Source: a virus
Direction: 5' to 3' (one strand)
IMG/VR virus record: IMGVR_UViG_3300023112_000012
Coordinates: 1-64,000 of that record
DNA: 64,000 bases
A model generated the notes under the pieces. The model was not told the DNA's origin and searched no databases. It saw only the letters and a program-made list of their open reading frames with translations. Positions 485 through 56,682 of the stretch are shown one piece after another (the first letter of the stretch is position 1; every line of letters begins with the position of its first letter). The translations under genes were made by a program, and so were the position numbers.

Positions 485-703
485 TTATTTGTATTTTCTA
501 AATTTTAATGAATATTGTGTTTTTCTTCCTGATTTACATTCAAATGACCAAACATCTTTAAAACATAAACAATCATTAAAATCAAAATATTCATTAAAAT
601 TTACTCCTAAATATTCACCATTATGTGCTGATAATAACAATAAACTATTAGACAGAAATTTTGTATGTCTGCTTGATTTTTCAAAACACTTATTCAGTTT
701 CAT
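485..703 (-). CDS. MKLNK-family small protein (divergent copy)
   Basis: 72-aa member of a paralogous family in this window whose N-terminus reads MKLNK-x-FEKS followed by a FLSS/FLSN motif. The start at 703 was chosen because MKLNK aligns with the paralogues. It overlaps the end of the upstream gene by 14 nt. The C-terminal half (FNEYFDFNDCLCFKDVW) differs from the other copies. Function unknown; see the family entry in findings. Confidence 0.55.
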   Translation of the reverse strand: MKLNKCFEKSSRHTKFLSNSLLLLSAHNGEYLGVNFNEYFDFNDCLCFKDVWSFECKSGRKTQYSLKFRKYK

Positions 704-977
704 TTTTTCTCCAGTTTTTGAAGATTTTATCAAATTCACACAACCCATACCAATTTCCTGCTAAAACTGTATTTTTATATGCTATTCTTTTATCTGATTT
801 TTTTATATGGTTTTTATATTTTATAATTTCATCATGTGTAAAATAGATAGATTTACTTTTTTTCAAATGATCTATTATATAATTCTGTGAAGATACACAT
901 CCTTTATGCCAATCTGATATTTGATTCATTTGTGTGTGTCTTTCAAGATATTTTATTAATTTATCTATTTTGCTCAT
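690..977 (-). CDS. Hypothetical protein
   Basis: 95-aa basic protein with no family recognised. It sits inside the first MKLNK cluster, linked by an ATGA overlap at 974-977 to the upstream MKLNK gene and by a 14-nt overlap to the downstream one, so it belongs to the same operon. Its N-terminus (MSKIDKLIKYLERH) is predicted helical and does not match the MKLNK motif. Confidence 0.5.
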   Translation of the reverse strand: MSKIDKLIKYLERHTQMNQISDWHKGCVSSQNYIIDHLKKSKSIYFTHDEIIKYKNHIKKSDKRIAYKNTVLAGNWYGLCEFDKIFKNWRKNETE

Positions 978-1192
978 TGATAATCCTCAAATTTATATAA
1001 AATTCCTTGAATTCCATGAATTCCATCAGCGCCAAATTTAACCTGAATAAAAAATTTTTCATGAAAATTGAGATATTTAATAAACAAATAAGGATTTAAA
1101 TAAATTGAATTAAACGGCTCATAATAATGTATTCCACTTGATAAATATTTTTCATATTTATCAGATTTTTCAATCATTTTATTTAGTTTCAT
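974..1192 (-). CDS. MKLNK-family small protein
   Basis: 72-aa paralogue. N-terminus MKLNKMIEKSDKYEKYLSSG is the family motif; the middle (SIYLNPYLFIKYLNFHEKF) and the end (KFGADGIHG...FEDYQ) are nearly the same as in the adjacent gene, so the two are a recent tandem duplication. Start and stop overlap neighbours as ATGA. Function unknown. Confidence 0.6.
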   Translation of the reverse strand: MKLNKMIEKSDKYEKYLSSGIHYYEPFNSIYLNPYLFIKYLNFHEKFFIQVKFGADGIHGIQGILYKFEDYQ

Positions 1193-1395
1193 TGATAATC
1201 CTCAAATTTAAATCTTCCATGAATTCCATCTGCACCAAATTTAATCCTAATATGAAATTTTTCATGAAAATTATGAAAACGAATAAACAAATAAGGATTT
1301 AAATAAATTGAATTTATCAGCTCGTCCCAATGTATTCCACTTGATAGAAATTTGTTATATTTATTTGACTTTTCAAATATTTTGTTTAGTTTCAT
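1189..1395 (-). CDS. MKLNK-family small protein
   Basis: 68-aa paralogue, first gene of the leftward cluster. The motif MKLNKIFEKSNKYNKFLSSG is followed by a hydrophobic/aromatic core and FEDYQ at the C-terminus. Compared with its tandem twin it lacks a few residues near GIHG. It is transcribed from the early promoter at 1423-1450. No signal peptide or membrane helix is evident. Confidence 0.6.
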   Translation of the reverse strand: MKLNKIFEKSNKYNKFLSSGIHWDELINSIYLNPYLFIRFHNFHEKFHIRIKFGADGIHGRFKFEDYQ

Positions 1396-4251: not shown

Positions 4252-4276
4252 AACGACCTCCTTTTAAATTAATTAA

Positions 4277-4339
4277 CAATTGAGTTGAACAACCTCAACT
4301 CTATAATACTATTATCGCATATCTAAATATAAAAGTCAA
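4277..4339 (-). promoter_or_regulatory. Early promoter with 5' stem-loop leader
   Basis: Minus strand: TTGACT (4339-4334), 17-bp spacer, GATAAT (4316-4311). The transcript should begin with GAGTTGA/TCAACTC pairing around a 6-nt loop (near 4281-4301), then TTGTTAATT and the ribosome site. Same design as at 4819 and 5439. Confidence 0.7.
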
Positions 4340-4760: not shown

Positions 4761-4785
4761 ATCTATCTCCTCCTTTTAAATTAAC

Positions 4786-4847
4786 AACTGAGCTGAACTA
4801 ACTCAACCCTACAATTTAATTATCGCATATCTAAATGTAGAAGTCAA
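4786..4847 (-). promoter_or_regulatory. Early promoter with 5' stem-loop leader
   Basis: Minus strand: TTGACT (4847-4842), 17-bp spacer, GATAAT (4824-4819), then a hairpin GGGTTGA/TCAGCTC (with G-T pairs) and TTGTTAATTTA before AAGGAGG. Confidence 0.7.
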
Positions 4848-5378: not shown

Positions 5379-5398
5379 AACGACCTCCTTCAAATAAA

Positions 5399-5467
5399 TT
5401 AACAACTGAGGTTAAACTGTCTTAACCTCTATACTTTAATTATAGCATAACCAGACACGAAAGTCAA
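5399..5467 (-). promoter_or_regulatory. Early promoter with 5' stem-loop leader
   Basis: Minus strand: TTGACT (5467-5462), 17 bp, TATAAT (5444-5439). The leader contains an 8-bp perfect stem GAGGTTAA/TTAACCTC followed by CAGTTGTTAATTTA and AAGGAGG. The stem-loop probably stabilises the mRNA 5' end. Confidence 0.75.
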
Positions 5468-8278: not shown

Positions 8279-8295
8279 AATAAACCTCTTAAATA

Positions 8296-8342
8296 AATTA
8301 ACAACCTATAATAATTATAACTGATTTTTATTAAAATGTCAA
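8296..8342 (-). promoter_or_regulatory. Early promoter
   Basis: Minus strand: TTGACA (8342-8337), 17 bp, TATAAT (8319-8314), then the class-B leader GGTTGTTAATTTATTTAAGAGG before the protease ATG. Confidence 0.75.
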
Positions 8343-8350: not shown

Positions 8351-8800
8351 TTAGATCTCTTGTAATAAACCTCTTAAAGGATCGATAAAGTATTTCGGTT
8401 TTAATTTAAAATCATCTTTGTTTTCGTGTTTGATTTTGAAAATAAATGCTGGTTCTTTTGTTATGTTCTTTCCATATGAAAAATCTATTGTATCTTCGTT
8501 TAGAATTGTTATATTTCCCCATTCTTGAAGTAATCTAGCAACAGTATTTCTGTGTTGGATATTTTCATCTCTCCAATTAATATCACACCCTGTTAATCCA
8601 TATGCTTCTTTAAAATGTATAATATACCATTCTTTCTTTATCTTGATGAGAAAACATGTTTGATTTAGTGTTTTTGAATTAGGTCTACCAAATCCCATTC
8701 TAGTTAGTGTCTCATTGACTGCACTTGCACCAACATTAAGTTTTATTTTGACCAGATTAGCTGTATCAAATTGATAATTGAATTCTAATTTCTTCTTCAT
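8351..8800 (-). CDS. regA: RegA translational repressor
   Basis: 149 aa (T4 RegA 122 aa). The order 'ETLTRMGFGRP...LNQTCFLIKIKKEWYIIHFKEAYGLTG...RRN/HRNTVARLLQEWG...KLKPKYFI' follows T4 RegA along most of its length (ETLTRMG, HFKE, RD-IAWLLEDWG, KLVPKY). RegA binds early mRNAs near start codons and blocks translation. The start at 8800 follows TGGAGTTTGTT. In T4 regA lies between 62 and 43; here it stands with zinc-ribbon genes, away from gp44/45. About 25 extra residues at the N-terminus. Confidence 0.85.
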   Translation of the reverse strand: MKKKLEFNYQFDTANLVKIKLNVGASAVNETLTRMGFGRPNSKTLNQTCFLIKIKKEWYIIHFKEAYGLTGCDINWRDENIQHRNTVARLLQEWGNITILNEDTIDFSYGKNITKEPAFIFKIKHENKDDFKLKPKYFIDPLRGLLQEI

Positions 8801-8824
8801 AACAAACTCCATTTAATTTAAATA

Positions 8825-9842: not shown

Positions 9843-10035
9843 TTATAATCCTTTCTTCAAAATTTTCTTTTAAAATTTTTGTTATTAGTTTTTGCTTATT
9901 TTTTATAATATTATGATTTTCGTATCTATTATAAATTTTTAAAGCAAAATCCAATGATTCAGTTGTATATTTCTTTGTGATTGTATAACAATAACAACCG
10001 CCAAATTTTAATATGTATTTAGCTAGTATAAACAT
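9829..10035 (-). CDS. Hypothetical protein
   Basis: 68 aa from the ATG at 10035, overlapping the upstream TGA (TGATG). Contains a GGCYCYTITKKY stretch near the N-terminus. Function not recognised. Confidence 0.45.
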   Translation of the reverse strand: MFILAKYILKFGGCYCYTITKKYTTESLDFALKIYNRYENHNIIKNKQKLITKILKENFEERIINEEG

Positions 10036-10715
10036 CACTCTACCTCATTTAATTTTTTAAAATATGTAAAATCAACTATAACAAGTTCTATATCCTTTGT
10101 TTTTGATTCTATTTCTTCAATACTAAATTTAGACCTATTTCCAAAAACTATAACGTCTGCAACAATTTTATCTGGTAAAATATCCCAAAAATCTGTTTCA
10201 AAAACTATAACGTCTTTTTTGAATCTAGAAGACAAATAAGATTTGCCAATTGCTGATTCTCCTTTGAATAGAAAACAAGGTCTTTTTTCTTTTGCTCTGT
10301 TTGTTTTTTGAAATAAATCCATATTGACACTATAATATCCAGAAGGATAATATTCATCTCCACCCAATTTGCTTAATTCTAGCAAATCACAATGAATTTC
10401 ATCTTTTTCAAAAAAAATTTGTAAATCTACCAAATCTTTTATTTCGTCTATAATAATAAGTTGTTTTGGTTTAAAATTAAATCCATTAAATCTTTTTACT
10501 ACTTTAAATTCAACATTTGCGTATGAAGCACAACACCATCCAGAATAACACTCTCCTTCTTCATCTGTTAATGTTATTTCTACTCTTATATTATTTTCAA
10601 GAATTACACAAAGAACATGTCTTTCAAATTCAGAATCTTTATATTCAAAATCACAATTAGAACCACTTACATATTTTCCTATATACTTTTCAATTCTTAA
10701 CCCTATTATTTTCAT
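10035..10715 (-). CDS. P-loop protein of unknown function
   Basis: 226 aa. The C-terminal half carries a Walker A-like motif in CFLFKGESAIGKSYLSS (about residues 150-166), then a possible Walker B strand ELVIVDF near the end. The N-terminal half is beta-rich with Cys residues (ECYSGWCCASY). A small nucleotide-binding or kinase-like protein is plausible; the substrate is unknown. ATG at 10715 follows GGAGGAATAATTG. Confidence 0.55.
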   Translation of the reverse strand: MKIIGLRIEKYIGKYVSGSNCDFEYKDSEFERHVLCVILENNIRVEITLTDEEGECYSGWCCASYANVEFKVVKRFNGFNFKPKQLIIIDEIKDLVDLQIFFEKDEIHCDLLELSKLGGDEYYPSGYYSVNMDLFQKTNRAKEKRPCFLFKGESAIGKSYLSSRFKKDVIVFETDFWDILPDKIVADVIVFGNRSKFSIEEIESKTKDIELVIVDFTYFKKLNEVE

Positions 10716-10718
10716 CAA

Positions 10719-11314: not shown

Positions 11315-12343
11315 TCAATCCTCCATTTCATTTCTAATTTCATAATTTTTAAATAATTCCTGCAATACTTTTTTATTTTCTATTTTCAACTGATTGAAAT
11401 ATTCTTTATCAACATTTTCAACAATTGAAAAATCAACATCTTCATCTATTTCTAAATCTAAATCCTTTATAGAAGTATCAACCTCTTTTGGTTTTAGTTT
11501 TTCTATAATCATATCAATTGAATTAATATATTTATTATCAATTGAATCTATATAAATTTTAACATATTTATTTGTAATAGTCAATAATTTTTTTTCAATT
11601 CCTTGTAAATCTTCATTATCTTTAATAAAATGTTTTTCAAAAAGATTGTTTTTATTTTCCATAAATTCAATTTCTCCTGAATCATTGTCAAAAATCCAAC
11701 AGCCTTTTTTTTCTAATTCACCAAAATTTGTTTGCCAAGGATTTCCAACATATAAAATATTATCCTTTTCTTGTTGATTGTGAAAGTGACCTGAGAAAAC
11801 TTTTGCATAATTTTCATAATCTGATTTAAATATTTGAGATTTCTTACATGTGTAATTTCCAGTCATTTTAAACCCTTTTAATGCAAAATGACCAAATAAA
11901 TAGTTATCCTTTGAGTTGTGTTTAGATATAAACTCAGAAACATATTCATAGTTGTCTGTTGTAATCCATGGAACAAATACCATATTTTTATATTTGTAAC
12001 ATTGATCAACAATTGATAAGTGTTTCAAATTGTCTGAGAAAAAGTTTCCAACTGAATTATATTTGTGTGAATTTTTATAATACATATCATGATTTCCAAC
12101 AATTGCAATATATCCAATATTTGTTTGTCTTTCTATCTCATTAAAAATATCTTTGAATATATTTAGAATTCTATTATCAGTGATTTTTCTTTTATCGTTT
12201 ATATCACCTGTTACAATAATATTTTCTATATTATATTCTTTAATTATTTCTATTAGAGATAAAAGATAATTTTTTTGATAGTTTATAAAAAAATCATCTG
12301 TTTTTACACCGAAATGTAAATCACTCAAAATTAAATGTTTCAT
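11315..12343 (-). CDS. Recombination nuclease subunit gp47 (SbcD/Mre11-like)
   Basis: 342 aa (T4 gp47 339 aa). All metallophosphoesterase motifs are present in order: LSDLHFG, VTGDINDKR, VGNHDMY, FGHFALKG and FSGHFHNQ. With gp46 it forms the ATP-dependent nuclease for recombination and host-DNA degradation. In T4 genes 47 and 46 are adjacent; here gp46 is about 32 kb away on the other strand. ATG overlaps the upstream MKLNK gene stop (ATGA). Confidence 0.9.
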   Translation of the reverse strand: MKHLILSDLHFGVKTDDFFINYQKNYLLSLIEIIKEYNIENIIVTGDINDKRKITDNRILNIFKDIFNEIERQTNIGYIAIVGNHDMYYKNSHKYNSVGNFFSDNLKHLSIVDQCYKYKNMVFVPWITTDNYEYVSEFISKHNSKDNYLFGHFALKGFKMTGNYTCKKSQIFKSDYENYAKVFSGHFHNQQEKDNILYVGNPWQTNFGELEKKGCWIFDNDSGEIEFMENKNNLFEKHFIKDNEDLQGIEKKLLTITNKYVKIYIDSIDNKYINSIDMIIEKLKPKEVDTSIKDLDLEIDEDVDFSIVENVDKEYFNQLKIENKKVLQELFKNYEIRNEMED

Positions 12344-12531
12344 TGATATTCCTCATAGTAAATTCTATCTTCATTTTTATAATAACAAAAGATAATTAAA
12401 TTTTTATAATATTCAATATAAACATTTATATTTATTTGTAAAATATTACTAGAGCTTTTATATAATCCACTTGATAGAAATTGAATTGAATAAAAATTTT
12501 TAGACTTTTCAATACATTTATTGAGCTTCAT
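12340..12531 (-). CDS. MKLNK-family small protein
   Basis: 63 aa from ATG 12531 (ATGA overlap with upstream gene). MKLNKCIEKSKNFYSIQFLSSGLY is the family motif; it ends YYEEYQ like other copies. The middle is Asn/Ile/Tyr-rich and diverged. Last gene of the second cluster before gp47. Confidence 0.6.
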   Translation of the reverse strand: MKLNKCIEKSKNFYSIQFLSSGLYKSSSNILQININVYIEYYKNLIIFCYYKNEDRIYYEEYQ

Positions 12532-12740
12532 AACCAATACCCATGTAATTCTATATCTTGCTGTGTTTCAAAATTTCCTCTTAAATATAAAAAACATTCA
12601 TTTTTACGTGTAAATGAATTATTACTAAAAATTAACACTATATCATTATGGCATATTGCATAATATACTCTATCTATTTTATTAATCCATACATTTTTAA
12701 ATATATCTCTATTAGCTTCAAATATTCTATTCAGATTCAT
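12528..12740 (-). CDS. MKLNK-family small protein, most divergent copy
   Basis: 70 aa. Keeps only MNLNRIFEA at the N-terminus; the LSSG motif is lost and the C-terminus ends ELHGYWL. Membership is inferred from position inside the tandem cluster, the N-terminus, and the same ATGA coupling. Confidence 0.5.
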   Translation of the reverse strand: MNLNRIFEANRDIFKNVWINKIDRVYYAICHNDIVLIFSNNSFTRKNECFLYLRGNFETQQDIELHGYWL

Positions 12741-12931
12741 CTGTATTTCTCATAATCAATTGATAATACAGAATTTTCAGTATCTTTTAACCATACATTA
12801 AAATATGCAATATCAAAATAAATCCATTTCTTATAACTTAATCGTAATCCTTTAGAACCACTTAAATACAAACCACTTGATAGAAATTTAATACCTTCAT
12901 TTGACTTTTCAAATCTTTTGTTAAGCTTCAT
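12737..12931 (-). CDS. MKLNK-family small protein
   Basis: 64 aa. MKLNKRFEKSNEGIKFLSSGLY, then a core with WIYFDIAYFNVWLKDT and end YEKYR. Very similar in the core to the next copy (WIFFDVTYFNVWVKE), indicating tandem duplication. Confidence 0.6.
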   Translation of the reverse strand: MKLNKRFEKSNEGIKFLSSGLYLSGSKGLRLSYKKWIYFDIAYFNVWLKDTENSVLSIDYEKYR

Positions 12932-13137
12932 TTGTATTCCTCATAATTATCAAATGTTTTAAAATTTTCTTTAACCCATACATTAAAATATGTAACATCA
13001 AAAAAAATCCATTCATAATTATTTAGATTTAAATTATAATATCTTATACTATTATAGTATCTTATACCATAATATAATCCACTTGATAAATATTTTTTAT
13101 ATTCATTTGATTTTTCAAATATTTTATTTAGTTTCAT
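12928..13137 (-). CDS. MKLNK-family small protein
   Basis: 69 aa. MKLNKIFEKSNEYKKYLSSGLYY, a short internal repeat (IRYYNS/IRYYNL, from a DNA repeat of 'aatatcttata'), then WIFFDVTYFNVWVKE and end NYEEYK. First of the four tandem copies; its ATG overlaps the stop of the membrane-protein gene. Confidence 0.6.
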   Translation of the reverse strand: MKLNKIFEKSNEYKKYLSSGLYYGIRYYNSIRYYNLNLNNYEWIFFDVTYFNVWVKENFKTFDNYEEYK

Positions 13138-13466
13138 TTTTCATCACATCTTTTCAATTGTTCTAACACTGTAAACCCCTTTGACATTCTATATATTGCA
13201 CCAAAACGAGTTGGTGTTATTTTTTCAATTTTAATTTTCCATTCACCACATCCAAGATTATATTTGAATGTGTGTGTTGTTATGAAAATTTCTTGCTCAG
13301 TGACAACAGGACTTGTCACATCATAATAAACCATTGTAAGACCTAATAGTCCAACAATAGTTATTGTTTTTATTTCTAGAGTTATTCCATTCCAGCTTCT
13401 TGAAATGAATCTTCCAAATGCTGAAACAAAACAACAAATTGCTATTGTAAAACCTATTATATACAT
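13134..13466 (-). CDS. Membrane protein
   Basis: 110 aa from ATG 13466 (TTTGGAGAATAAA upstream). Two hydrophobic helices (about residues 1-20 and 36-52, MYIIGFTIAICCFVSAF and TITIVGLLGLTMVYY) followed by a soluble beta-rich domain of about 55 residues. First gene after an early promoter and leads the second MKLNK operon. Function unknown. Confidence 0.55.
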   Translation of the reverse strand: MYIIGFTIAICCFVSAFGRFISRSWNGITLEIKTITIVGLLGLTMVYYDVTSPVVTEQEIFITTHTFKYNLGCGEWKIKIEKITPTRFGAIYRMSKGFTVLEQLKRCDEK

Positions 13467-13482
13467 TTTATTCTCCAAATCA

Positions 13483-13533
13483 AAAATTAACAACTCACAA
13501 TACTATTATATTCTATCATTAAAGAAAAGTCAA
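13483..13533 (-). promoter_or_regulatory. Early promoter, class-B leader
   Basis: Minus strand: TTGACT (13533-13528), 17 bp, TATAAT (13510-13505), then AGTATTGTGAGTTGTTAATT, the same 20-nt leader as at 39219 on the plus strand. Confidence 0.75.
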
Positions 13534-13644: not shown

Positions 13645-16614
13645 TTAAACAGCTTTAAATTTTCTTAGAAAATATTCTGATTCTCTTCTAATTTTATTCA
13701 TTTGACTTCTTGGAACGAAAAATCCAACAACTCTTGAAATGTTATCAATAATTTCACCACCACATTCAGCACAAACTTTCAAATTATTATCTCCAACATG
13801 AATATGACCATTTTCACATTTATTAAAATTATAATTAACAGCAAAATGTTGTAAACCACATTCAATTGCATATCTCATAATTTTTTTCATGTCTTCTTTT
13901 GATTTTATTTGACTATCAACATTTATATGACAAATACCACCACCTGATAAAGCTTTGAAAAATATTCCTTCATATTTCATTCTATCAAAAATATCCATAT
14001 CAACAGTTAAAGGAATGAATTGATTTGAATACAATTCAAATGGTTGAACTTCTTCTCCATAAATTATTTTGTCTTTTAGTGCAAATTTAGGAGCAAGTGA
14101 TTCACCAGGCACTTCTTCAAGATTATAATTAACATTTTCATTTTCAGACCACTCAGAAGCTTTATCATTAATATAATTAATAATATTTTTTTCAAGAGCT
14201 ATTACATTTTCTTTAAGTTTTCCATTTTCATCATACATATCATTTCCTGTTAAGTGATACATCATTTCATGCATTCCTAGAATACCAATTGTAGAAAATA
14301 ACATTTTATCAATGTTTATATAGTTTAATGGTTTAACAAATTGAAGAAATCCAGCGTCTGCTCTTTTATGTAATAATTTTCTATGTGCCTTTAATGTTTT
14401 ATGAACCATATCTAGTTGATCATCTAAAATTTCATAAAATCTTTCAATTCTATTTTGATCATCTGATTGAAATTCACTTTCAATTGCTACTCTTGGTAAA
14501 TTAATTGATACAACCCTATGACTACCTACTGATAATCCGCCATTCCCAAATGAATCTGCACCATTTAACTTTGTTTGAGAATTCAATCTGCAATTATGTG
14601 TGTTAATTCCTGTTGGTAATGTAAAATATGGATTTGTTTGATCTTTCATTTCAAAACAATATACATATTCATCTTTATAGATATTTGTTATATTTGTTAT
14701 ATTTTTAATTTTAAAATATATTGTGTTGTTTTTGAATTTATATATGTTTTTCTGTTTAGATTTATGTCTATTTTCATACCATCTAATACAATATAAAACA
14801 TGATTTCTATTAAATTCTTCTCCTCTTATCATAACCTTTTCGTCTGTTCTATCTGAAATATTAATAATACTATTTTTACCAAGCGATGTTATTAAAACTT
14901 CAAAATCTTTGGATAATTGTTCTGATGTTGTATATATTCTATTACTATTTCCACCATCTGTTATATACATACCATCCAAAATTCCCTTTCTAAATTCAAT
15001 CGATTGTAAAATCACATCTAAATTTAAACTCTTTTCATAGCAACATGAACCTTTTACCCAACGTTTAATTATTGTATGAAGCTCTTTTGATGATATAACG
15101 CAAGGATAAACATTATTATATTCTTTATAAAGTTTCATTTTCACATTTAAATTCCACTGTTCAAGAGCTTTAGCTATTATTTTGTTTAATTTTTCATATT
15201 TTTCCTTATTAATACTAAAATTAATTCTATTTTTTTCAGAACTACCATCACCAAGATATGCACCAATCAAAACTCCCTGCTCATAAGTTAAATTTTCGCT
15301 ATGTTCTGGTATAGATTTTGTTTCATTTGTATTAAAAGCAATATAATCATTTTCGGTTAAATCTTTTGTTAATTTTTCACCATCAAATGTTAAATTTAAA
15401 TGATCTTCTGTCATTTTTAAAATTTTATTATTAACAGTTTCAACTTGAAATATTTCTCTATTTTGTTTTAAAATTTTAACCATTTTAGCCTTAGACCAAA
15501 ATCCATTTTGCCAAACTTTAAAATTTTCTCTATCAATCATTCTAGTTTCAACAATTTCCTTTATTGTTGATAATTTAACTCCGTTATTACTTGATTTTGT
15601 TAAGACCATTTGATCGTTTGTAAAACAACAAGAAGCAATTTTACCAACTGAATCAGAAACATATACATTCATAATGCTTTTTGAAATATTATGTTCTGCT
15701 ACGATATCAAAAAATTCTTCATCTAATTCTATTTCATTTTCTTTATCATGTAGAAATGCAGATGTGAGAACTGGAAATCTGTATGGTTCATTTGTTGTAG
15801 GATCTCCTTTACAAAAGAATTTCATATATATTTTCTGAATCTTCATTACATAGTCAAAATCTGGTTTTGTAAAATCAGGAAACATATATCCATTAAATAA
15901 TGCTTCTAAATTATTTCTACAAAAAAGACTTAGATTAGTAAATGGACTCTGAGATCCACGAGAAAATTTATTGTTAAAAATATACACAAGAGATTGAAAA
16001 TGATTTTCTATTTGTTTATCAGTTAGATTTTCTTTTTTTGCATAATATGAATAATTCACAAATAAATCACCTATAGCAACAGCCCCTGCCATTTGGCTAC
16101 TGGACAGATTCATCACTGTCTCAATTACTTGACCAATAAATGATGCTGCTGTTTTTGGTGGTATTGCTACTGGTTCACTCCAAGGTCTACCTTCTATCAT
16201 TATTCGTGATGTTGTTGTTGAAAAACAATAAGGGACCTGTACATTTGTTGGGTCATGTAGGTAAATATCCGAATATATTATAGATTTGAATATTTTATTT
16301 GCTTCTTCTTCTCCATATTCTTTTTCAATCATTCTATAAATTAAAAAATAATTTTCTAATTTTAACATTGGTTTTGATAATTCACTAACATAATTAGCAT
16401 GATTTATACCATTATCAACATTAGCATTAGAATCAATACTTATATCAGCAACATTATCTGTTAGAAAATATTTTTTGGAATTCTTTGCAAAATCTAAATT
16501 ATCCCTACTAATTCCTTCAATTTCTAACATCAATCTACCCTTTTCATTTGAATGAATCTTATTGTATAAATCTGAAAAATTCTCTGGAAAATCCATACTA
16601 AACCTTAATGTCAT
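13645..16614 (-). CDS. nrdD: Anaerobic ribonucleotide reductase large subunit NrdD, with intein
   Basis: 989 aa precursor; about 644 aa after removal of a 345-aa intein. Class III RNR reduces ribonucleoside triphosphates using a glycyl radical. Landmarks: the active-site Cys region IASC|CRLNSQTK (split by the intein), a C-terminal Zn site (CENGH...CAEC), and the glycyl loop RVVGFFVPRSQMNK followed by RRESEYFLRKF. The sequence resembles the NrdD type in anaerobic bacteria and T4. nrdG follows one nucleotide upstream, so they are co-transcribed. Activity depends on intein splicing because the intein sits between catalytic cysteines. Confidence 0.9.
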   Translation of the reverse strand: MTLRFSMDFPENFSDLYNKIHSNEKGRLMLEIEGISRDNLDFAKNSKKYFLTDNVADISIDSNANVDNGINHANYVSELSKPMLKLENYFLIYRMIEKEYGEEEANKIFKSIIYSDIYLHDPTNVQVPYCFSTTTSRIMIEGRPWSEPVAIPPKTAASFIGQVIETVMNLSSSQMAGAVAIGDLFVNYSYYAKKENLTDKQIENHFQSLVYIFNNKFSRGSQSPFTNLSLFCRNNLEALFNGYMFPDFTKPDFDYVMKIQKIYMKFFCKGDPTTNEPYRFPVLTSAFLHDKENEIELDEEFFDIVAEHNISKSIMNVYVSDSVGKIASCCFTNDQMVLTKSSNNGVKLSTIKEIVETRMIDRENFKVWQNGFWSKAKMVKILKQNREIFQVETVNNKILKMTEDHLNLTFDGEKLTKDLTENDYIAFNTNETKSIPEHSENLTYEQGVLIGAYLGDGSSEKNRINFSINKEKYEKLNKIIAKALEQWNLNVKMKLYKEYNNVYPCVISSKELHTIIKRWVKGSCCYEKSLNLDVILQSIEFRKGILDGMYITDGGNSNRIYTTSEQLSKDFEVLITSLGKNSIINISDRTDEKVMIRGEEFNRNHVLYCIRWYENRHKSKQKNIYKFKNNTIYFKIKNITNITNIYKDEYVYCFEMKDQTNPYFTLPTGINTHNCRLNSQTKLNGADSFGNGGLSVGSHRVVSINLPRVAIESEFQSDDQNRIERFYEILDDQLDMVHKTLKAHRKLLHKRADAGFLQFVKPLNYINIDKMLFSTIGILGMHEMMYHLTGNDMYDENGKLKENVIALEKNIINYINDKASEWSENENVNYNLEEVPGESLAPKFALKDKIIYGEEVQPFELYSNQFIPLTVDMDIFDRMKYEGIFFKALSGGGICHINVDSQIKSKEDMKKIMRYAIECGLQHFAVNYNFNKCENGHIHVGDNNLKVCAECGGEIIDNISRVVGFFVPRSQMNKIRRESEYFLRKFKAV
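14593..15627 (-). mobile_element. LAGLIDADG intein in NrdD
   Basis: 345 aa (NrdD residues 330-674). Starts with Cys in CFTNDQMVLTK (block A), has a TxxH-like block B (MTEDHLNLTF), two LAGLIDADG motifs (GVLIGAYLGDG and FRKGILDGMYITDGG), and ends with THN before extein Cys (block G). Both splice-site residues and both endonuclease acidic residues are present, so it looks active for splicing and homing. Insertion separates the two adjacent Cys of IASC/CRL, the conserved active site. Confidence 0.9.
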
Positions 16615-29140: not shown

Positions 29141-29296
29141 TCAAATGATTAAATTTCTAATATGATTATTTTTCATTCGTTTATATGCTCTAATACTGCT
29201 TCCTATATAAACTTTATTATTAACCAAATTAGTAATTTTATAAATTACACAAATTTCTTTTTTAATTATTTTTTCTAATAATTCTTGACTTTTCAT
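29141..29296 (-). pseudogene. Truncated GIY-YIG endonuclease remnant
   Basis: 51 aa, MKSQELLEK...VIYKITNLVNNKVYIGSS...YKR. This matches the first about 50 residues of the intact 264-aa protein at 56772 (same GIY-YIG region), then ends. It lacks the catalytic Glu and DNA-binding domain. ATG at 29296 with ACGGAG upstream. Confidence 0.7.
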
Positions 29297-29326
29297 CTTG
29301 ATCTCCGTATAATATATATAACTTAT

Positions 29327-29382
29327 AGGGTGTGTCACTCCGTAACACAAAGTTGAATGAATTCCAGTTCATTCAACACCCT
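29327..29382 (-). ncRNA. Three-way-junction element, copy 1
   Basis: On the minus strand three stems close without leftover bases: P1 AGGGT/ACCCT (29378-29382 with 29327-29331), P2 10 bp GTTGAATGAA/TTCATTCAAC with 6-nt loop, P3 7 bp GTGTTAC/GTGACAC with GGA loop, joined by TTT. Preceded on the minus strand by a 20-nt sequence identical to copy 2 (43301-43320). Confidence 0.65.
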
Positions 29383-32461: not shown

Positions 32462-33499
32462 TCAAACACCAGTCGACCCAAAACCATTTTCTCCACGATC
32501 GGTTTCATCAAGTTCTTTTACATATTCATAATTTTCTATATTTATTGGAATTGTTAATAACTGTGCTATTCTATCACCAACATTAACTTTAAATGGTTTA
32601 TCTCCAAAATTATATAAAAGAATTTTAACTTCCCCTGTGTACGTTGAATCTATACACCCTGCACCAACTTGAATTCCGTGTTTTACTGATAATCCACTTC
32701 TGGACCATATTATGCCAACATATTCATTTGGAATTTTTATATATAAATCTGTTGATAATAATTTTCTAGCATTTGGTTCAATTATAATTTCTTCATTTGA
32801 TTTTATATCTAACCCAGCATCAAATATATGTCTTTTATATAATTTAGAACCTTTTTGTTTTCCTTTAATTTTTTTATATCTTCCCTTTTCATCTCTTTTC
32901 ATTTTCATGTCTTTTACATGTAATGAAGTATGATCACCCAATGACATAATTTCTAAGTTTTCAATTGTATTATTTAATTTATTTAGATCTTTATGATGAA
33001 TAACAACAGAAGGATCTAAAAATAATTCGTCAAAATCTTTTACACCAATTAAATATTCAGAATCTGGATAATTTGCTCTTAAATGTTCTTCCATTATTAT
33101 TCTATGTAAAAAAATTTTGTTACTACTATTTTTAAATGGATGTGTTAAACATCTCAAATCTAAATATCCGTAATTAGTTAAAGATAAATCACCCTTATAT
33201 GTTGAATTTAATTCTCCTTTTAATCCATATTGATGATTTTTTTCACCTAGAAATTCAGTCTTTTTAAGCTCATATGCACATTCTTTAGAACAACATATTT
33301 TTTCTTTATCTTTTAATCTGTTTAATCTATGAGGTTTAACATGAAATGTTTTTCCACATATTGAACATTTTACGTTATCTGATAATTTTTTTGAAATATC
33401 AGAACATTTTCTAGAACAATATTTTGCTTCTCCTTTCTTAAATCTACTAGGATATATTTCAAATGTTTTTCCACATTGTAAACAAGTAAGTTTAATCAT
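32462..33499 (-). CDS. HNH endonuclease-dUTPase fusion
   Basis: 345 aa. N-terminus has two zinc-ribbon-like motifs (CLQCGKTF...CSRKC and CSICGKTF...CSKEC), then an HNH motif (SVVIHHKDLNKLNNTIENLEIM, about residues 165-186), then a full dUTPase: DAGLDI (motif 1), WSRSGLSVKHG (2), CIDSTYTGEVKILLY (3), GDRIAQLL (4), RGENGFGSTG (5). The domain order is typical of a homing-endonuclease gene fused in frame to a host gene. Whether one protein or processed is unknown. Lies next to a second dUTPase. Confidence 0.8.
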   Translation of the reverse strand: MIKLTCLQCGKTFEIYPSRFKKGEAKYCSRKCSDISKKLSDNVKCSICGKTFHVKPHRLNRLKDKEKICCSKECAYELKKTEFLGEKNHQYGLKGELNSTYKGDLSLTNYGYLDLRCLTHPFKNSSNKIFLHRIIMEEHLRANYPDSEYLIGVKDFDELFLDPSVVIHHKDLNKLNNTIENLEIMSLGDHTSLHVKDMKMKRDEKGRYKKIKGKQKGSKLYKRHIFDAGLDIKSNEEIIIEPNARKLLSTDLYIKIPNEYVGIIWSRSGLSVKHGIQVGAGCIDSTYTGEVKILLYNFGDKPFKVNVGDRIAQLLTIPINIENYEYVKELDETDRGENGFGSTGV

Positions 33500-33509: not shown

Positions 33510-33908
33510 TTATATTTCTTTTAAATTTTCAACAACAACAATGTCTGCTTTGGGCACATATTGAAGCACTCCCTGAGCGATTCTCATGCCCTTCTTAACA
33601 CGAAAAGAATAATCTGATGTATTGTATAGGATGATCTTTATTTCATTATTATTATTTTCATCTATAGTGCCTGGTGCATTAAGAACAGTCAAACCTTCCC
33701 TTGCAGCAAGTCCACTTCTTGGTCTTATTTGAATTTCATAACCTTTTGGAATTTGACACCTTATTCCAGTGGATATGATTTTCCTTTTTCCTTTTGGAAT
33801 TATGACAGTTTCATTTGCAGCAATATCAAACCCACTTGCACCTTCTGTCTGATATTCAGGTATCTTTACACCTTTGTCTAATTTTAATTTTAAAACTTGA
33901 TTTTCCAT
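33510..33908 (-). CDS. dUTPase lacking motif 5
   Basis: 132 aa from ATG 33908 (AAAGGAGGAAGA). Motifs: ASGFDI (1), RPRSGLAA (2), GTIDENNNNEIKIIL (3; normally has Tyr), GMRIAQGVLQ (4). It stops before the Gly-rich motif 5 that closes the active site in trimers. It may need the C-terminus of the neighbouring fusion or be inactive. Confidence 0.8.
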   Translation of the reverse strand: MENQVLKLKLDKGVKIPEYQTEGASGFDIAANETVIIPKGKRKIISTGIRCQIPKGYEIQIRPRSGLAAREGLTVLNAPGTIDENNNNEIKIILYNTSDYSFRVKKGMRIAQGVLQYVPKADIVVVENLKEI

Positions 33909-34001
33909 TCTTCCTCCTTTGAAAAATTCTCTGATCATCTTATCTTCATTTATTATTTTCATTTTTCACCATTCTCAAACCTCTTTTAATATTAATTAAT
34001 T

Positions 34002-39189: not shown

Positions 39190-39239
39190 TTGACATTATT
39201 TGTAAAATCGATTATAATAGTATTGTGAGTTGTTAATTT
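39190..39239 (+). promoter_or_regulatory. Early promoter, class-B leader
   Basis: TTGACA (39190-39195), 17 bp, TATAAT (39213-39218), then AGTATTGTGAGTTGTTAATTT. Drives the rightward operon from 39256. Confidence 0.75.
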
Positions 39240-39255
39240 AATTAAGGAGATTATC

Positions 39256-44585: not shown

Positions 44586-46681
44586 TGTTTAAAAAATTAA
44601 TTCTTAGAAATTTTTTATCAGTTGGAAATAAACCACAAACAATTAATTTTAAAGATGGGATTAATCTTTTATCAGGTGAAAATGGTGTTGGAAAATCAAC
44701 AATTATTAAAGCATTAAAACTAATTTTGTTTAATAATGTTGGTGATAAAAAATCTAAAACAGAATTAATTAATTGGGACAATAAGAAAAATATGTTTGTT
44801 GAATTACAATTTACAAAAAATAATTTAGAATATATTGTTGGAAGATCTTTAAAATGTAAAGATAAAGATGATTTTTATTTGTTTAAAGACGATAAAAAAC
44901 AAAATTTTTCAGATGAAAAAAGTTTTTCAGATGATATTCATAAATTATTAAATGTTAATCCAAAAATTGCAAGTCAAACAATTTTTCTTGATGCTGAATT
45001 TTATGTTCCTTTTTTATCATTAACTAAAGATAAAAAAAGAGATTTTATTAGACCAATTTTTGATTTGATGAAATATGATGAAATGAAAGAATTAATAAAA
45101 AAGGATATAAAAATACTTGATAATGAAATAAGTAATTCAACTCAAAATAAAGCAATTCTAAGTGAAAAAAAGAACACTGTGATTGTTTCTATAGAAAATC
45201 AAAAACAGTCTTTATATGACGATAATTCTAATCGAGAAGAACTATTAAAAACATGTTTAGATGAATTAAAAACATTTGAGACTGAAAAAGATAATTTTAC
45301 ATTGTTAGATTCTGATGAATATGAGAAAAAGAATATTGATTTGAAAGAAAAACTTTTAAAATGTGAAAAAACAATAATACGAAAAGAAGCAAATAAAGAA
45401 AAGGTTGAAGAATCTAAAAAGTCAATTGAGAAAAAGAATGTTGATTTGAAGGAGAAAAAGAAAGAATTATCTGAAAATGAAAATATAATCTATCAAAAAC
45501 CTTTAACACAATTGATTATAGATGATATTAATTCTAAAGTTGAACAAAGTAAACTAAATCTATCAAATATCAAAAATGAATCTAATCTATTATTTAAAGC
45601 AAATAAATTCTATGAGAAAAATGATGAATGTAAGGAATGTGGGCAATTTATCAATGAAATATTTAAAGCTGAACAATTGAAAAATAATAATAAAATAATA
45701 GATAAAAATTTAAAATCTTGTGAATTAATTAAAAAAGAACTAGAAAGACTCAATGATCATAAACAACAATATTCAAAATATGAAAAAGAATTAAAAGAAT
45801 ATGAAAGAAATGTTTATGAAAATAATATCAAGATTAAACAATTAAATGAATCAATAGCACAATTAGAAACAGATATAAAAACTGATAAATCAAAAATTGT
45901 TGAAATTGATGAAGAGTATATTGAAAAATTACATAAAGCAAAGACAAAAATTGAAAAAAGAATTGAAGAAAATAATAAAATTATTTCTAAATCAAACGAA
46001 AACAATTCTAAATACAACAAAATTATTTCTGATATCTCTTTAAAGAATCAAGAAACTAAATCAAACGAAAAAAGAATTGAAGAAAATAATATAAAAATTA
46101 AAACATTAAATGATGATACACAAGTAAAAGAAATAGAAGAAAGAATTGAAAGATTGAATATTTTTATTGAAGAAAAGAACGACAAAAAGAATAATTTATT
46201 AAATCTTCTATTGTGTGTTGGAGATAATGGTATCAAAAAATATATAATTGGAAAATCAGTTCCATTTTTGAATCAAATTGCTAAGAAATATTGTGAAGCT
46301 ATTAATTCTAAGTTTATGATCAAATTTAATAGAAATGGGCTAGATGTTGATATTGTTAGAAGAGGAAAAAATGTTTCTTTTTGGTCACCATCATCTGGGC
46401 AAAGACAACGATTGAATTTAGTTATTATGTTTGTTTTCATACAATTCATGAAAATTAAAACAAATCAGACTTTTCCAGCTATTTTTTTTGATGAAATATT
46501 AAATAGTTCTTTAGATGAAAATGGGATCAATGATTTGTTAGTGATATTAAAAGAATTGAAAAATGATATTTCATATATATACTTGATATCACATGATAAT
46601 AATACAAAAGCGTTATGTGATAATGAAATTAAAGTTGAAATGAATGGCAGATTTACAAATTATAAACAATTGGAGAATTAA
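44585..46681 (+). CDS. Recombination nuclease ATPase gp46 (SbcC/Rad50-like)
   Basis: 698 aa (T4 gp46 560 aa; here longer coils). Walker A SGENGVGKSTI (residues 30-40), long coiled coil with the Zn hook KECGQF (Cys349 and Cys352), ABC signature SSGQRQRLNL near 604, Walker B PAIFFDEIL. Partner of gp47 (11315). It processes DNA ends in recombination-dependent replication. Confidence 0.9.
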   Translation: MFKKLILRNFLSVGNKPQTINFKDGINLLSGENGVGKSTIIKALKLILFNNVGDKKSKTELINWDNKKNMFVELQFTKNNLEYIVGRSLKCKDKDDFYLFKDDKKQNFSDEKSFSDDIHKLLNVNPKIASQTIFLDAEFYVPFLSLTKDKKRDFIRPIFDLMKYDEMKELIKKDIKILDNEISNSTQNKAILSEKKNTVIVSIENQKQSLYDDNSNREELLKTCLDELKTFETEKDNFTLLDSDEYEKKNIDLKEKLLKCEKTIIRKEANKEKVEESKKSIEKKNVDLKEKKKELSENENIIYQKPLTQLIIDDINSKVEQSKLNLSNIKNESNLLFKANKFYEKNDECKECGQFINEIFKAEQLKNNNKIIDKNLKSCELIKKELERLNDHKQQYSKYEKELKEYERNVYENNIKIKQLNESIAQLETDIKTDKSKIVEIDEEYIEKLHKAKTKIEKRIEENNKIISKSNENNSKYNKIISDISLKNQETKSNEKRIEENNIKIKTLNDDTQVKEIEERIERLNIFIEEKNDKKNNLLNLLLCVGDNGIKKYIIGKSVPFLNQIAKKYCEAINSKFMIKFNRNGLDVDIVRRGKNVSFWSPSSGQRQRLNLVIMFVFIQFMKIKTNQTFPAIFFDEILNSSLDENGINDLLVILKELKNDISYIYLISHDNNTKALCDNEIKVEMNGRFTNYKQLEN

Positions 46682-46683
46682 AA

Positions 46684-46935
46684 ATGTTTCTAAATGATAT
46701 AAAAATAAGCCGAGTGAATAGTATTCAGTTTTGGGTTGCATTAGAAATAGCTGGAAAATATATAAAAGAAAATGAAACAGAAAAAATATACAATGATACG
46801 TTTTTTCTGTATGAAAGAAATATTAAAATAACAGGAAAACATCCGATAAAAATTAAGCGTGGATATAATAATTATTGGTTAACATGCAGAAAAACAAAAA
46901 CAATGTATATTATAGAAATAAGAAATGCTATTTAA
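46684..46935 (+). CDS. Hypothetical protein
   Basis: 83 aa; ATG after GGAGAATTAAAA. Beta-rich end (YWLTCRKTKTMYIIEI). Unrecognised. Confidence 0.45.
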   Translation: MFLNDIKISRVNSIQFWVALEIAGKYIKENETEKIYNDTFFLYERNIKITGKHPIKIKRGYNNYWLTCRKTKTMYIIEIRNAI

Positions 46936-46960
46936 TAAATAAACAAAATAGGAGGTAATC

Positions 46961-47317
46961 ATGAGTTTATTAAGAAAACAACTGTTGTATATAAAAGACA
47001 ACATAATTAAAAGACGTTATAAATTAAAGGAATTACATAACAAGAAAAAAGAATTATCAATACAAATTTCAGAAATCAAACAAACACTCTTAGATAATAT
47101 TACAGAGAAGAAAGATGATAAGGGTAAGGCTCTATATTCTAATGCAACAAAACGTGATTCGGCACTGAAATATGCGCTTGTAGAGCATAAAGAATATAAT
47201 ACAAAATCTAAACTTTTGGTTGATCTTGAAGATGAAATAAAAGAATGTGAAATTGAATTAGATAGTTTTAAAATTGATATGAAAATTGAAGAAATTTGTT
47301 CTAGGTATCAGGTATGA
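46961..47317 (+). CDS. Coiled-coil protein
   Basis: 118 aa; two coiled-coil segments and the central motif KGKALYSNATKRDSALKY that resembles a family conserved in phages. Possibly binds DNA or a replisome partner. AGGAGGTAATC upstream. Function unknown. Confidence 0.5.
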   Translation: MSLLRKQLLYIKDNIIKRRYKLKELHNKKKELSIQISEIKQTLLDNITEKKDDKGKALYSNATKRDSALKYALVEHKEYNTKSKLLVDLEDEIKECEIELDSFKIDMKIEEICSRYQV

Positions 47318-47649
47318 ATATAAAAAAATCGTACATAAAATATATCAAAAAAAAATTTGAATATATTAGTTATCTTGATGATGATGGAAATGGTGCTGAA
47401 TTGGATATTAGAAAAAGAAAACTAACAATTCATGAAAATAAAGATTCACAAAATAAATTGAAATTACAATTCACACGGTCTTTGAAATGTTATAATTTTT
47501 TTGAAGTTGCAAAACAGATTTTGAAAATGGCATTAAGAAAAACATTTAGAGATGAATTTACATTTTACATTTGCACAAAAAAAGGCAATTGGGATTTGTT
47601 AAGTAAGTTAAGAAGTAGTGATGAAATGAAAATTAATGAAGGAGAATAA
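47314..47649 (+). CDS. Hypothetical protein
   Basis: 111 aa, basic; ATG overlaps the upstream stop. No family. Confidence 0.45.
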   Translation: MNIKKSYIKYIKKKFEYISYLDDDGNGAELDIRKRKLTIHENKDSQNKLKLQFTRSLKCYNFFEVAKQILKMALRKTFRDEFTFYICTKKGNWDLLSKLRSSDEMKINEGE

Positions 47650-47650
47650 A

Positions 47651-47968
47651 ATGACTGTAGCAATAGCACGTGTTGGAACAACTTATATAATAGGCGATTA
47701 CATAGATAACAAAATGAAAGATTGTTTTATATTGAAATCAGAAGCACAAATGAATCCACAGACACAACAAGTTGAAATAGATGAATATATATTACCAATA
47801 TTTCCATATGGTTTGTCAAATTCTGATGATAGACCAATATATGATTATGATGAATCTGAATATAAAGATTTAAAAACTGTAAAAATGATAGCTATTACTA
47901 ATAAATCATATGCTGATTTTTTAGAAAATAAATACAATAAAATTGTTGGAAGGCAAATAATATTATGA
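47651..47968 (+). CDS. Conserved phage protein, unknown
   Basis: 105 aa from ATG 47651 (GAAGGAGAATAAA). 'CFILKSEAQMNPQTQQVEIDEYILPIFPYGLS' and 'SYADFLENKYNKIVGRQI' look conserved with proteins of other marine or enteric T4-likes; the strand pattern could be an Sm-like barrel, not verified. Confidence 0.5.
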   Translation: MTVAIARVGTTYIIGDYIDNKMKDCFILKSEAQMNPQTQQVEIDEYILPIFPYGLSNSDDRPIYDYDESEYKDLKTVKMIAITNKSYADFLENKYNKIVGRQIIL

Positions 47969-48144
47969 TTAAGTTAATTAAAAAATATTTTAAAAAACTT
48001 AAAGAATATTACGAAATTAATGCAAATGAAATTATTGAAAGGAAATTTAATATTGAATTTGAAGAACGATTAAGAAAAGATTGTGAAAAGATTGGATTTG
48101 ATTATGATGTTATTATGAAATATATAGAAGATAGCAAGAAATGA
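47965..48144 (+). CDS. Small charged protein (59 aa)
   Basis: MIKLIKKYFKKLKEYYEINA...; ATG overlaps the upstream TGA and its own TGA overlaps the next ATG. Helical. Function unknown. Confidence 0.45.
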   Translation: MIKLIKKYFKKLKEYYEINANEIIERKFNIEFEERLRKDCEKIGFDYDVIMKYIEDSKK

Positions 48145-48386
48145 TTGAATTAATACTAACTATAGATAAAATATATATAGATGTTAATATTCAAAATGAT
48201 ATTGAACGTAATATCATAATTTTATATATAACTAATAATTTAGATAATTGTAAATTTCAAGTGGATATGATAAATAATAAAATTATTGTTGAAAAAGACG
48301 AATATAATGAAATATATCAAGAAATTTCTCATATATTCGATTATATCTCTAAAACAAATGAATTCTATCTAAGAAAAAAATCATAA
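48141..48386 (+). CDS. Hypothetical protein
   Basis: 81 aa, Asn/Ile-rich, alternating beta/helix. ATG coupled to the previous stop. Last gene of the early block before gp4. Confidence 0.45.
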   Translation: MIELILTIDKIYIDVNIQNDIERNIIILYITNNLDNCKFQVDMINNKIIVEKDEYNEIYQEISHIFDYISKTNEFYLRKKS

Positions 48387-48428
48387 AAAATAAATAGTTT
48401 CATATATTAATTATATGGGATTATTAAA

Positions 48429-48971
48429 ATGGTGAGAAAAAAACCAAACTATCAACAAGGAAAAATCTTTTTAATTACTGAAGAACACAAAAAGAAGTAT
48501 TGTGGTAATTCTAATCAAATAATATATAGATCTGGATGGGAAAGAGATTTCTGCAAATATCTATTAAATAATAAATGTGTTACAAAACTAGTTATGGAAG
48601 AGGTTATAATAAATTATATTTCACCAATTGATGGCAATAAACATAGATATTTTATGGATTTTTATTTTGAAATTACCGATAAAAATGGAGAAATAAAAAG
48701 AGTGTTATGTGAAGTAAAACCATTTGCACAAACACAACCACCAACAAAATCATTAACAAAGACAGGAAGAAAATCAAAAAAAAGAGAATCAACATATCAA
48801 AAACAAATTAGAACATATATGGTTAATATGGCTAAATGGGAAGCAACAAAGAGATTTGCTGAAAAGAATGATTTAATATTTTTGATTTTAACTGATCATC
48901 CTGATGCTAATTTTAGATATGAAACTAAATTTAAATTGTGGACTACTGAAGAACTAGGATTAAATTTATAA
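48429..48971 (+). CDS. Head completion protein gp4
   Basis: 180 aa (T4 gp4 150 aa). 'IIYRSGWERDFCKYL...VMEEVIINYISPIDGNKHRYFMDFYFEI...LCEVKPFAQTQPP' follows T4 gp4 (IIYRSSWE, EEI, SPIDG-HRYFPDF, EVKP), including a nuclease-like D...E-V-K core. Acts after packaging to complete the head before tail joining. Has a 30-residue extension of K/R-rich linker (TGRKSKKRESTYQKQ). Confidence 0.8.
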   Translation: MVRKKPNYQQGKIFLITEEHKKKYCGNSNQIIYRSGWERDFCKYLLNNKCVTKLVMEEVIINYISPIDGNKHRYFMDFYFEITDKNGEIKRVLCEVKPFAQTQPPTKSLTKTGRKSKKRESTYQKQIRTYMVNMAKWEATKRFAEKNDLIFLILTDHPDANFRYETKFKLWTTEELGLNL

Positions 48972-48974
48972 ATA
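48967..48974 (+). promoter_or_regulatory. Late promoter (TATAAATA)
   Basis: Exact motif overlapping the gp4 stop, leading to the endonuclease and virion-protein genes. Confidence 0.6.
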
Positions 48975-48996
48975 GAAATAGTTATTAACAAAATGT

Positions 48997-50235
48997 ATGG
49001 ATATGATGGTAGTAAAAAACTTAACATTGAGCGAAGAAAATAATTTTTTTTGTTGTGAATGTGAAAGAACATTTAAAAGTTTATCTGGTCTTAGTATTCA
49101 TGTTAATAGAATGCATAAAGATATAGCTGGAAAAATACTAATAAAATATATTAGACAATTTGTAGAATCTGTAGATGGGTATAAACTTTTAAGTGATGCT
49201 TATATTAATAGTAAAACTATTCTAGAAATTCAGTGTATTAAGTGTCACAAATTCAAGATGAGATGGGATTGCTTTCAACAAGGTCAAAGATGCCCAATTT
49301 GCTGCAATGAATCAAAGAGATTATCAATATCAGAAGTTAAGAAATATATTGAAAGTTTTAAAGATTATAAGCTTTTGTGTAAAGATTATATTAATAATAA
49401 AACTAATCTAAATATGATTTGTCCATATGGTCATGTATTTAAAATGAATTTTGATAGATTTCAACAAGGTCAAAGATGTCCGGTGTGTTATGGTAATAAA
49501 AAGAAAACTATTGAAGAAATTAGAGAATTTGTAGAATCAAAAGAATATAAACTTTTGAGTGATACTTATATTAATAATTCGACAAAATTAGATATGATTT
49601 GTCCAGATGGTCATATATTTAAAATGTGTTGGAATAATTTTATGTTTGGAAATAGATGTCCGGTGTGTTATGGTAATAAAAAGAAAACTATTGAAGAAAT
49701 TAGAAAGTATGTTGAACAAGAAGGTTATATATTATTAAGCAAAGAATATATAAATTCACATAGTAATCTTGAAATAAAATGTTCAAGTGGACATGTATTT
49801 AAAATGAATTGGACAAACTTCAGTAGTGGAAAAAGATGTCCCAAATGTAAAAGGTCTAAAGGGGAAGAAATAATTGCTAAAATATTAGAATCAAATTATA
49901 TAGAGTTTGAAACACAAAAACGGTTTGATGAGTGTAAAAACATATTGCATCTGCCTTTCGATTTTTATATACCATCATTAAACATTCTGATAGAATATGA
50001 TGGCGAACAACACTTTAAACCTTTTAGTTTTAGTAGTAATAGAACTCAGGAAACTATGAACATTAATTTTATTAATATTATGTTGAGAGATGAAATAAAA
50101 ACTAATTTCGCAAGTTCAAATAATATTAAATTGCTTAGAATTTCTTATTACAATTTTTATAATATAGAAGAAATTATCAAAAAACATTTAAATATATGGA
50201 TTAAAAATGTTAATTACAAAAATACAAGAAAATAA
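48997..50235 (+). CDS. EDxHD-type (Vsr-like) homing endonuclease with zinc-finger repeats
   Basis: 412 aa. A C2H2-type finger (CCECERTFKSLSGLSIHVNRMH) is followed by four repeats of about 60-70 residues, each 'CxxGHxFKMxWxxFxxGxRCPxC' (treble-clef-like zinc units). C-terminus: GEEIIAKILE...LPFDFYIPSLNILIEYDGEQHFKPF (E...D...D-G-E-Q-H), then later acidic residues, the EDxHD pattern. Such enzymes are Vsr-like homing endonucleases of T4-like phages. It ends 29 nt into the next gene. Confidence 0.75.
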   Translation: MDMMVVKNLTLSEENNFFCCECERTFKSLSGLSIHVNRMHKDIAGKILIKYIRQFVESVDGYKLLSDAYINSKTILEIQCIKCHKFKMRWDCFQQGQRCPICCNESKRLSISEVKKYIESFKDYKLLCKDYINNKTNLNMICPYGHVFKMNFDRFQQGQRCPVCYGNKKKTIEEIREFVESKEYKLLSDTYINNSTKLDMICPDGHIFKMCWNNFMFGNRCPVCYGNKKKTIEEIRKYVEQEGYILLSKEYINSHSNLEIKCSSGHVFKMNWTNFSSGKRCPKCKRSKGEEIIAKILESNYIEFETQKRFDECKNILHLPFDFYIPSLNILIEYDGEQHFKPFSFSSNRTQETMNINFINIMLRDEIKTNFASSNNIKLLRISYYNFYNIEEIIKKHLNIWIKNVNYKNTRK

Positions 50236-50872: not shown

Positions 50873-50876
50873 AAAA

Positions 50877-50884
50877 TATAAATA
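50877..50884 (+). promoter_or_regulatory. Late promoter (TATAAATA)
   Basis: Exact motif 34 nt before the portal gene. Confidence 0.7.
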
Positions 50885-50917
50885 AAATAGATATAAAAAA
50901 TAAAATAGGAAAATAAA

Positions 50918-52599: not shown

Positions 52600-52616
52600 T
52601 ATATGAGGAAGAAAAA

Positions 52617-53282: not shown

Positions 53283-53312
53283 TATATGAATTATTAATAA
53301 ATGGAGATTAAA

Positions 53313-55202: not shown

Positions 55203-55205
55203 ATA
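55198..55205 (+). promoter_or_regulatory. Late promoter (TATAAATA) of gp23
   Basis: Exact motif 41 nt before the capsid ATG, overlapping the gp22 stop. Confidence 0.75.
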
Positions 55206-55245
55206 TATAAAAAAACGATTACTAACTTATTTTTTGGAGAAAAAA

Positions 55246-56655: not shown

Positions 56656-56682
56656 GTTAAATTTATTTGACTATATTTTATG

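Follow-up and report, generated by a model that had tools for sequence, protein, structure and literature searches.

Six small genes with a conserved head and four kinds of body in two putative coupled arrays of a T4-like phage

Why would a virus carry several small genes that begin alike and continue differently, and what might such genes do? The question is raised by IMG/VR virus record IMGVR_UViG_3300023112_000012, a 67 kb record classed as one contig, of which positions 1 to 64,000 were analysed (the window). An earlier note, made from the letters alone, had reported three related small genes at 485-703, 974-1192 and 1189-1395, and all three are found at exactly these positions as minus-strand open reading frames (ORFs). 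They belong to a family of six genes, all on the minus strand and in two clusters, three in 485-1395 and three in 12340-13137. The products are 63 to 72 residues long and have in common an N-terminal head, MKLNKx[FI]EKS followed by K/Q-[FY]-L-S. The second cluster, the intervening gene 690-977, a duplicate pair and a C-terminal tail with a dual role, all described below, were left out of the earlier entry.

The first step is to ask whether the six genes are real and related. Cluster 1 holds m1395 (1189-1395, 68 residues), m1192 (974-1192, 72 residues) and the divergent m703 (485-703, 72 residues), which starts at the ATG at 703, internal to a longer mechanical ORF. Cluster 2 holds m13137 (12928-13137, 69 residues), m12931 (12737-12931, 64 residues) and m12531 (12340-12531, 63 residues). 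Leave-one-out profile searches, run against all window ORFs, recover every member, with E values of 9e-21 for m1395 (4e-28 with the full profile), 4e-21 for m1192, 4e-11 for m703, 9e-21 for m13137, 2e-16 for m12931 and 3e-8 for m12531; the best non-members lie at about 0.01 to 0.08. The heads match one another at shuffle z scores of about 8 to 18, and in the pooled head differences the synonymous proportion (pS 0.55) is far above the non-synonymous (pN 0.18). Taken together, the excess of synonymous differences, the head z scores and the leave-one-out recovery show that the six are genuine coding genes rather than products of chance. The same selection pattern rules out a non-coding repeat as the origin of the shared heads. 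The exact consensus given in the earlier note, MKLNKxFEKSxxYxKFLSSG, does not hold throughout: at two of its F positions 974-1192 carries I and Y, and the sequence in 485-703 is MKLNKCFEKSSRHTKFLSNS.

Are the heads recent transfers? As the codon usage of the genome is very skewed, identical codons at same-residue positions were compared with the number expected under independent codon choice. In head pairs with unrelated bodies, 101 of 161 codons are identical against 90.6 expected (standard deviation 8.4, P 0.12), which speaks against heads having been swapped onto new bodies by recent recombination. The exception is the pair m1192/m13137, with 13 of 14 codons identical (P 0.002, uncorrected for the 15 pairs), which may reflect local conversion. 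Overall, little memory remains at the synonymous sites, and the heads are therefore old and kept by amino-acid selection. The synonymous sites of the heads look near saturated, the family looks old, and the 20-residue head is maintained by selection at the amino-acid level.

Past residue 22, the bodies form four groups, as follows: m1395 with m1192 (z 29.9), m13137 with m12931 (z 11.5), m12531 alone and m703 alone. Between groups the scores are no better than shuffled sequences give, with a maximum of z 2.8 (m703/m12931). An hhalign comparison of the m1395-m1192 profile with the m13137-m12931 profile gave no common-fold signal, in what is a weak test with two sequences per side. m1192 is a near duplicate of m1395, the two being 71-75% identical over their whole length. 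The claim that the cluster 1 genes differ downstream thus applies to 485-703 only, one of the three bodies, whereas a conserved head with a variable body describes the six members well.

The C-terminus is conserved as well, all six members terminating in aromatic-x-x-Tyr-[KQR]. In five of the six, the tail is [FY]E(D/E/K)Y, encoded as [TTT/TAT] GAG [GAT/GAA/AAA] [TAT/TAC] x TGA, and the next gene's ATG overlaps the stop as ATGA. All five use GAG for the tail Glu, a codon that makes up 9.6% of Glu codons genome-wide (ORFs of at least 200 residues); the chance of this is 8e-6 for five independent cases and about 9e-4 with each of the two pairs counted once. At four of the five family-tail junctions, GAGG lies 6-7 nucleotides ahead of the ATG, and GAG does so at the fifth, in the position of a Shine-Dalgarno (SD) sequence. 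Junction by junction, GAGG precedes the starts at 12931 (from the m13137 tail YEEYK), 12343 (from the m12531 tail YEEYQ), 1192 (from the last codons of m1395) and 977, and GAG precedes 12740 (from the m12931 tail YEKYR); no such motif precedes 13137 and 12531. The sole member without an overlapping downstream start, m703, has AGA AAA at the tail position (tail FRKYK) and a separate AAGGAGG after its stop. It follows from this pattern that RNA, not protein, explains part of the tail conservation. The arrays have the anatomy of stop/start-overlap operons in which the upstream gene carries an SD at its 3′ end, and translational coupling is predicted. A tail serving both as a protein motif and as an SD shows that gene structure can favour the tandem growth of arrays.

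Does the family have relatives elsewhere? Searches of Pfam, PHROGs, NCBIfam, PADLOC and PDB gave no family match above a curated or convincing score, and the defence-system library of PADLOC had no match. No relative was found by tblastn with three queries against phage records and one against plasmids, at E values up to 1 or 10. Scans of IMG/VR and GTDB genomes with family queries also found none, although these required exact short peptides or patterns, which distant relatives could escape; five GTDB pattern matches were rejected as chance, with no head before the motif. The family profile found no member in 36 IMG/VR records reached via gp47, the major head protein or the portal, a set made up mostly of fragments and searched with no positive control. 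A scan with the tail-gene neighbour 1473-2543 likewise found no relative. The earlier note had not recognised the family, and indeed the searches turned up no curated family, no solved structure and no relative among phages, plasmids, IMG/VR or GTDB genomes. Judged by sequence, and as far as each search reached, the family is new; the kind of family is already known. It is seemingly confined to the lineage of this phage.

As to that lineage, PHROG matches in the window (26% G+C) include T4-type portal, major head protein, baseplate wedge, UvsX, gp46, gp44 and RegA, and gp47 was found by tblastn (about 29-31% identity to T4-type gp47); the phage is therefore placed as a T4-like myovirus. Since its major head protein shares no more than 25-27% identity with the top-ranking of the listed phage records, all of them cyanophages, the phage is taken from these matches to be a deep-branching one. 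Two IMG/VR contigs from a single other sample match parts of the window within 45918-60966 at 99.95-99.97% identity and cover neither cluster. No related isolate spanning either cluster was found.

How are the genes expressed? The one promoter claimed for cluster 1 is present, a TTGACA-16-TATAAT at 1450-1423 on the minus strand with 12 of 12 matches, identical over 28 nucleotides to a promoter at 35785-35758. Cluster 2 is preceded by TTGACT-17-TATAAT (13505-13533, minus strand, 11 of 12 matches), followed by the leader element GTTGTTAATTTT. The sigma70-type promoter expected of T4-like early accessory genes is thus present at both clusters, and it is from the sigma70 form that we infer the early action that the earlier note had attached to the promoter. 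The window contains nine exact TTGACA-N16/17-TATAAT promoters, where Markov-1 sequences would give 0.4; they lie at 39190, 43336, 43457, 56711 and 57710 on the plus strand and at 35785, 20986, 8342 and 1450 on the minus strand. Many carry an extended form such as TTGACATTCTTTAAAAAATAAGTATAAT, a strong promoter class found phage-wide.

A leader element, GTTGTTAATTTA or a close variant, stands between the promoter and the SD of several genes. With at most one mismatch there are nine matches against 2.3 expected, among them 4271-4279, 4777-4788, 5395-5406, 8294-8305 and 13483-13494 (minus strand) and 39229-39240 (plus strand). It is present at cluster 2 and not at cluster 1; other strong promoters have AATTGTT[AC]TTT instead. 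The element resembles the consensus obtained for T4 RegA by in vitro selection (SELEX), aaAAUUGUUAUGUAA (PMC3014915), and the phage encodes RegA (8351-8812). In three successive minus-strand leaders (5429-5408, 4809-4790 and 4301-4282), an 8-9 bp hairpin lies immediately ahead of the TTGTTAAT element, and each is preceded by a TTGACT-17-[TG]ATAAT promoter, making up repeated promoter-hairpin cassettes.

Within the cluster 1 operon, m1395 comes first, with its own leader, and m1192 follows by an ATGA overlap. Next is an unrelated gene (690-977, 95 residues), joined by an ATGA overlap with a GAGG SD; it is not a family member (profile E 1.6) and matches no Pfam family at cut-off. m703 overlaps this gene by 14 nucleotides, not by stop and start codons. 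The earlier view that all three genes are coupled by overlapping start and stop codons is accordingly right for 974-1192 and not for the other two. Downstream, a minus-strand gene at 194-472 with AAGGAGG before its ATG encodes 92 residues, probably a membrane protein, with a weak, sub-threshold match to AI-2E_transport only. The cluster 2 operon begins with an unrelated gene (13134-13493, minus strand, no Pfam match), whose probable start is the ATG at 13466 after the SD GGAG, giving 110 residues. Between m12931 and m12531, and in the same coupled chain through ATGA overlaps at both ends, lies a minus-strand ORF of 70 residues (12528-12740) with the head MNLNRIFEAN. Its likeness to the heads is weak (shuffle z 2.5-5.4) and its profile E of 0.28 is not separated from chance; it is a possible decayed member. 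Directly downstream of the cluster, and predicted to be coupled to it, is the gp47/SbcD-like nuclease gene (11315-12343, minus strand).

What, then, might these proteins do? Most small early genes of T4-like phages are without known function. In such phages, accessory genes that are small, coupled, duplicated and driven by strong sigma70 promoters mostly serve host takeover or counter-defence. A precedent is T4 TifA, a protein of 85 residues formerly of unknown function, which inhibits ToxN and whose gene readily amplifies in tandem under selection (PMC9391042). Given this background and precedent, we consider a role in host takeover or counter-defence the most likely, and we tentatively read the family, with slightly less than even confidence, as tandem-duplicated, co-translated early accessory proteins. 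The family, of at least six mostly basic proteins, would have arisen by gene duplication, and two strong sigma70-type promoters would express the copies as translationally coupled operons, the tail codons supplying the next gene's SD so that translating one copy can feed the next. The proteins would act early, binding and modulating host factors; the constant basic head would be a shared contact or assembly surface, and the fast-diverging, probably beta-rich body would set partner specificity.

Several points weigh against this reading. The operon neighbours, genes of unknown function and gp47, do not point to defence. No positive selection was seen in the best alignable body pair (codons 21-57, non-synonymous rate dN 0.18, synonymous rate dS 0.35). 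Two AlphaFold2 runs gave mean confidence (pLDDT) values of 52 and 48, too poor for a fold search; the models hint at an N-terminal helix (residues 4-17 in m1395) plus a beta meander. The head is probably an amphipathic helix, and the bodies are probably beta-rich. The binding, timing, partner and function of the family rest on inference, as do the helix and the beta body. Diversification against variable host targets, as the earlier note suggested, is possible. The pattern is accounted for just as well by ordinary rapid divergence within an old duplicate family; no positive selection is seen in the body pair, and the synonymous head sites are near saturated. A more ambitious version, a modular inhibitor set in which six proteins carry one constant docking helix and four unrelated bodies, each for a different host factor, the copies being linked by an SD in the conserved C-terminus so that a new tandem copy would be translated straight away, seems to us improbable.

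The alternative that survives best, though we think it unlikely, is that these are nucleic-acid-binding or replication-associated accessory proteins, whose basic head would bind DNA or RNA and whose gp47-adjacent gene would work with the recombination machinery. The head charges of +1.8 to +3.8 suit this, and cluster 2 lies between the clamp-loader block and gp47 and is predicted to be coupled to the latter. That coupling may be incidental, however, cluster 1 sits amid genes of unknown function, and the bodies are not basic as a rule (isoelectric point, pI, 5.0-9.1).

A further alternative, about as doubtful as the modular inhibitor set, is that the proteins are internal, ejected ones, the head being a capsid-targeting sequence that packs them into the virion and the bodies injected counter-defence, as with T4 IPI. 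In favour of this, the head has an invariant Glu8, Glu being the residue after which T4-type prohead proteases cut (PMC5694885), and all but one of the six proteins are clearly basic (pI 8.5-9.6, against 7.9 for the remaining one). Yet the residue two before the Glu, which is characteristic of each phage's protease (in SPN3US the motif is A-x-E; PMC5694885), varies here, position 6 being C, M, I, C, R and I, and conservation runs 12 residues past Glu8, further than a targeting peptide that is cut off would require.

It is very unlikely that the arrays are recent amplification noise, decaying and with no selected role: m703 and 12528-12740 are divergent, but all six frames are open, the expression signals are intact, and the head has stayed conserved although its synonymous sites are saturated, a selection pattern that already disfavours this reading. 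Least credible are bacteriocin-like leader-core peptides, with a constant leader cut after SG to release variable cores, for although the head ends in SSG in five of six members and the remainder varies, m703 has SNS, the head lacks a long hydrophobic stretch, the C-terminus is conserved too, the bodies are long and beta-like, and the few neighbours tested had no Pfam match, no genome-wide search for a peptidase or exporter having been made.

With a function only proposed, the finding is a modest one. Paralogous sets with a constant part nevertheless give a handle, in that the head could serve to fish for a partner shared by all copies, and a comparison of the bodies could address specificity.

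Elsewhere in the window, a long ORF at 13645-16614 (minus strand) reads, from its translation, like an anaerobic ribonucleotide reductase with an intein-like insert. At 32462-33499 (minus strand) an HNH-endonuclease region is fused to a dUTPase domain, and the adjoining ORF 33510-33962 (minus strand) is 43% identical to the dUTPase part. A GIY-YIG endonuclease gene lies at 56772-57566 (plus strand); the short ORF 29141-29350 (minus strand), 55% identical to its N-terminus, is perhaps a truncated copy. A PHROG 10007 protein (10035-10718, minus strand, E 6e-65) is found in six phage records only, at 38-46% identity and from unrelated hosts (Bacillus, Vibrio, Acinetobacter, Pseudoalteromonas), one record being annotated as a putative phosphotransferase. 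Inside the terminase/HNH-like gene 48997-50235, at 49360-49723 (plus strand), blastn shows a tandem repeat of about 187 bp with 80% identity.

How does the family compare with known systems? The nearest architectural parallel is the T4 internal proteins IPI, IPII and IPIII, small proteins of a T4-type phage with a conserved targeting N-terminus and diverse bodies (PMC3012670). In contrast to these, the family has no consistent residue-x-Glu motif, and no sequence match was found in Pfam, PHROGs, PDB or phage records. As to conservation outside the head, the four body groups are unrelated, but the C-terminal aromatic-x-x-Tyr is common to the members. Given the varying residue before Glu8 and the conservation past it, we do not file the family with the T4 internal proteins. 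The toxin inhibitors TifA and Dmd are likewise small proteins of T4, encoded at an accessory locus that amplifies readily in tandem under selection (PMC9391042). No sequence similarity to them was found, and the copies here, unlike fresh amplifications, are old and strongly diverged. Finally, overlapping gene pairs in most bacterial groups usually have an SD motif within the upstream gene, which typically matters for reinitiation or coupling (PMC6728339), and the arrays resemble such ATGA-coupled pairs in having the SD at the stop/start overlap. Unlike in ordinary ATGA pairs, the SD codons recur here as a C-terminal motif of the family, and they are missing from the copy that has no overlapping downstream start.
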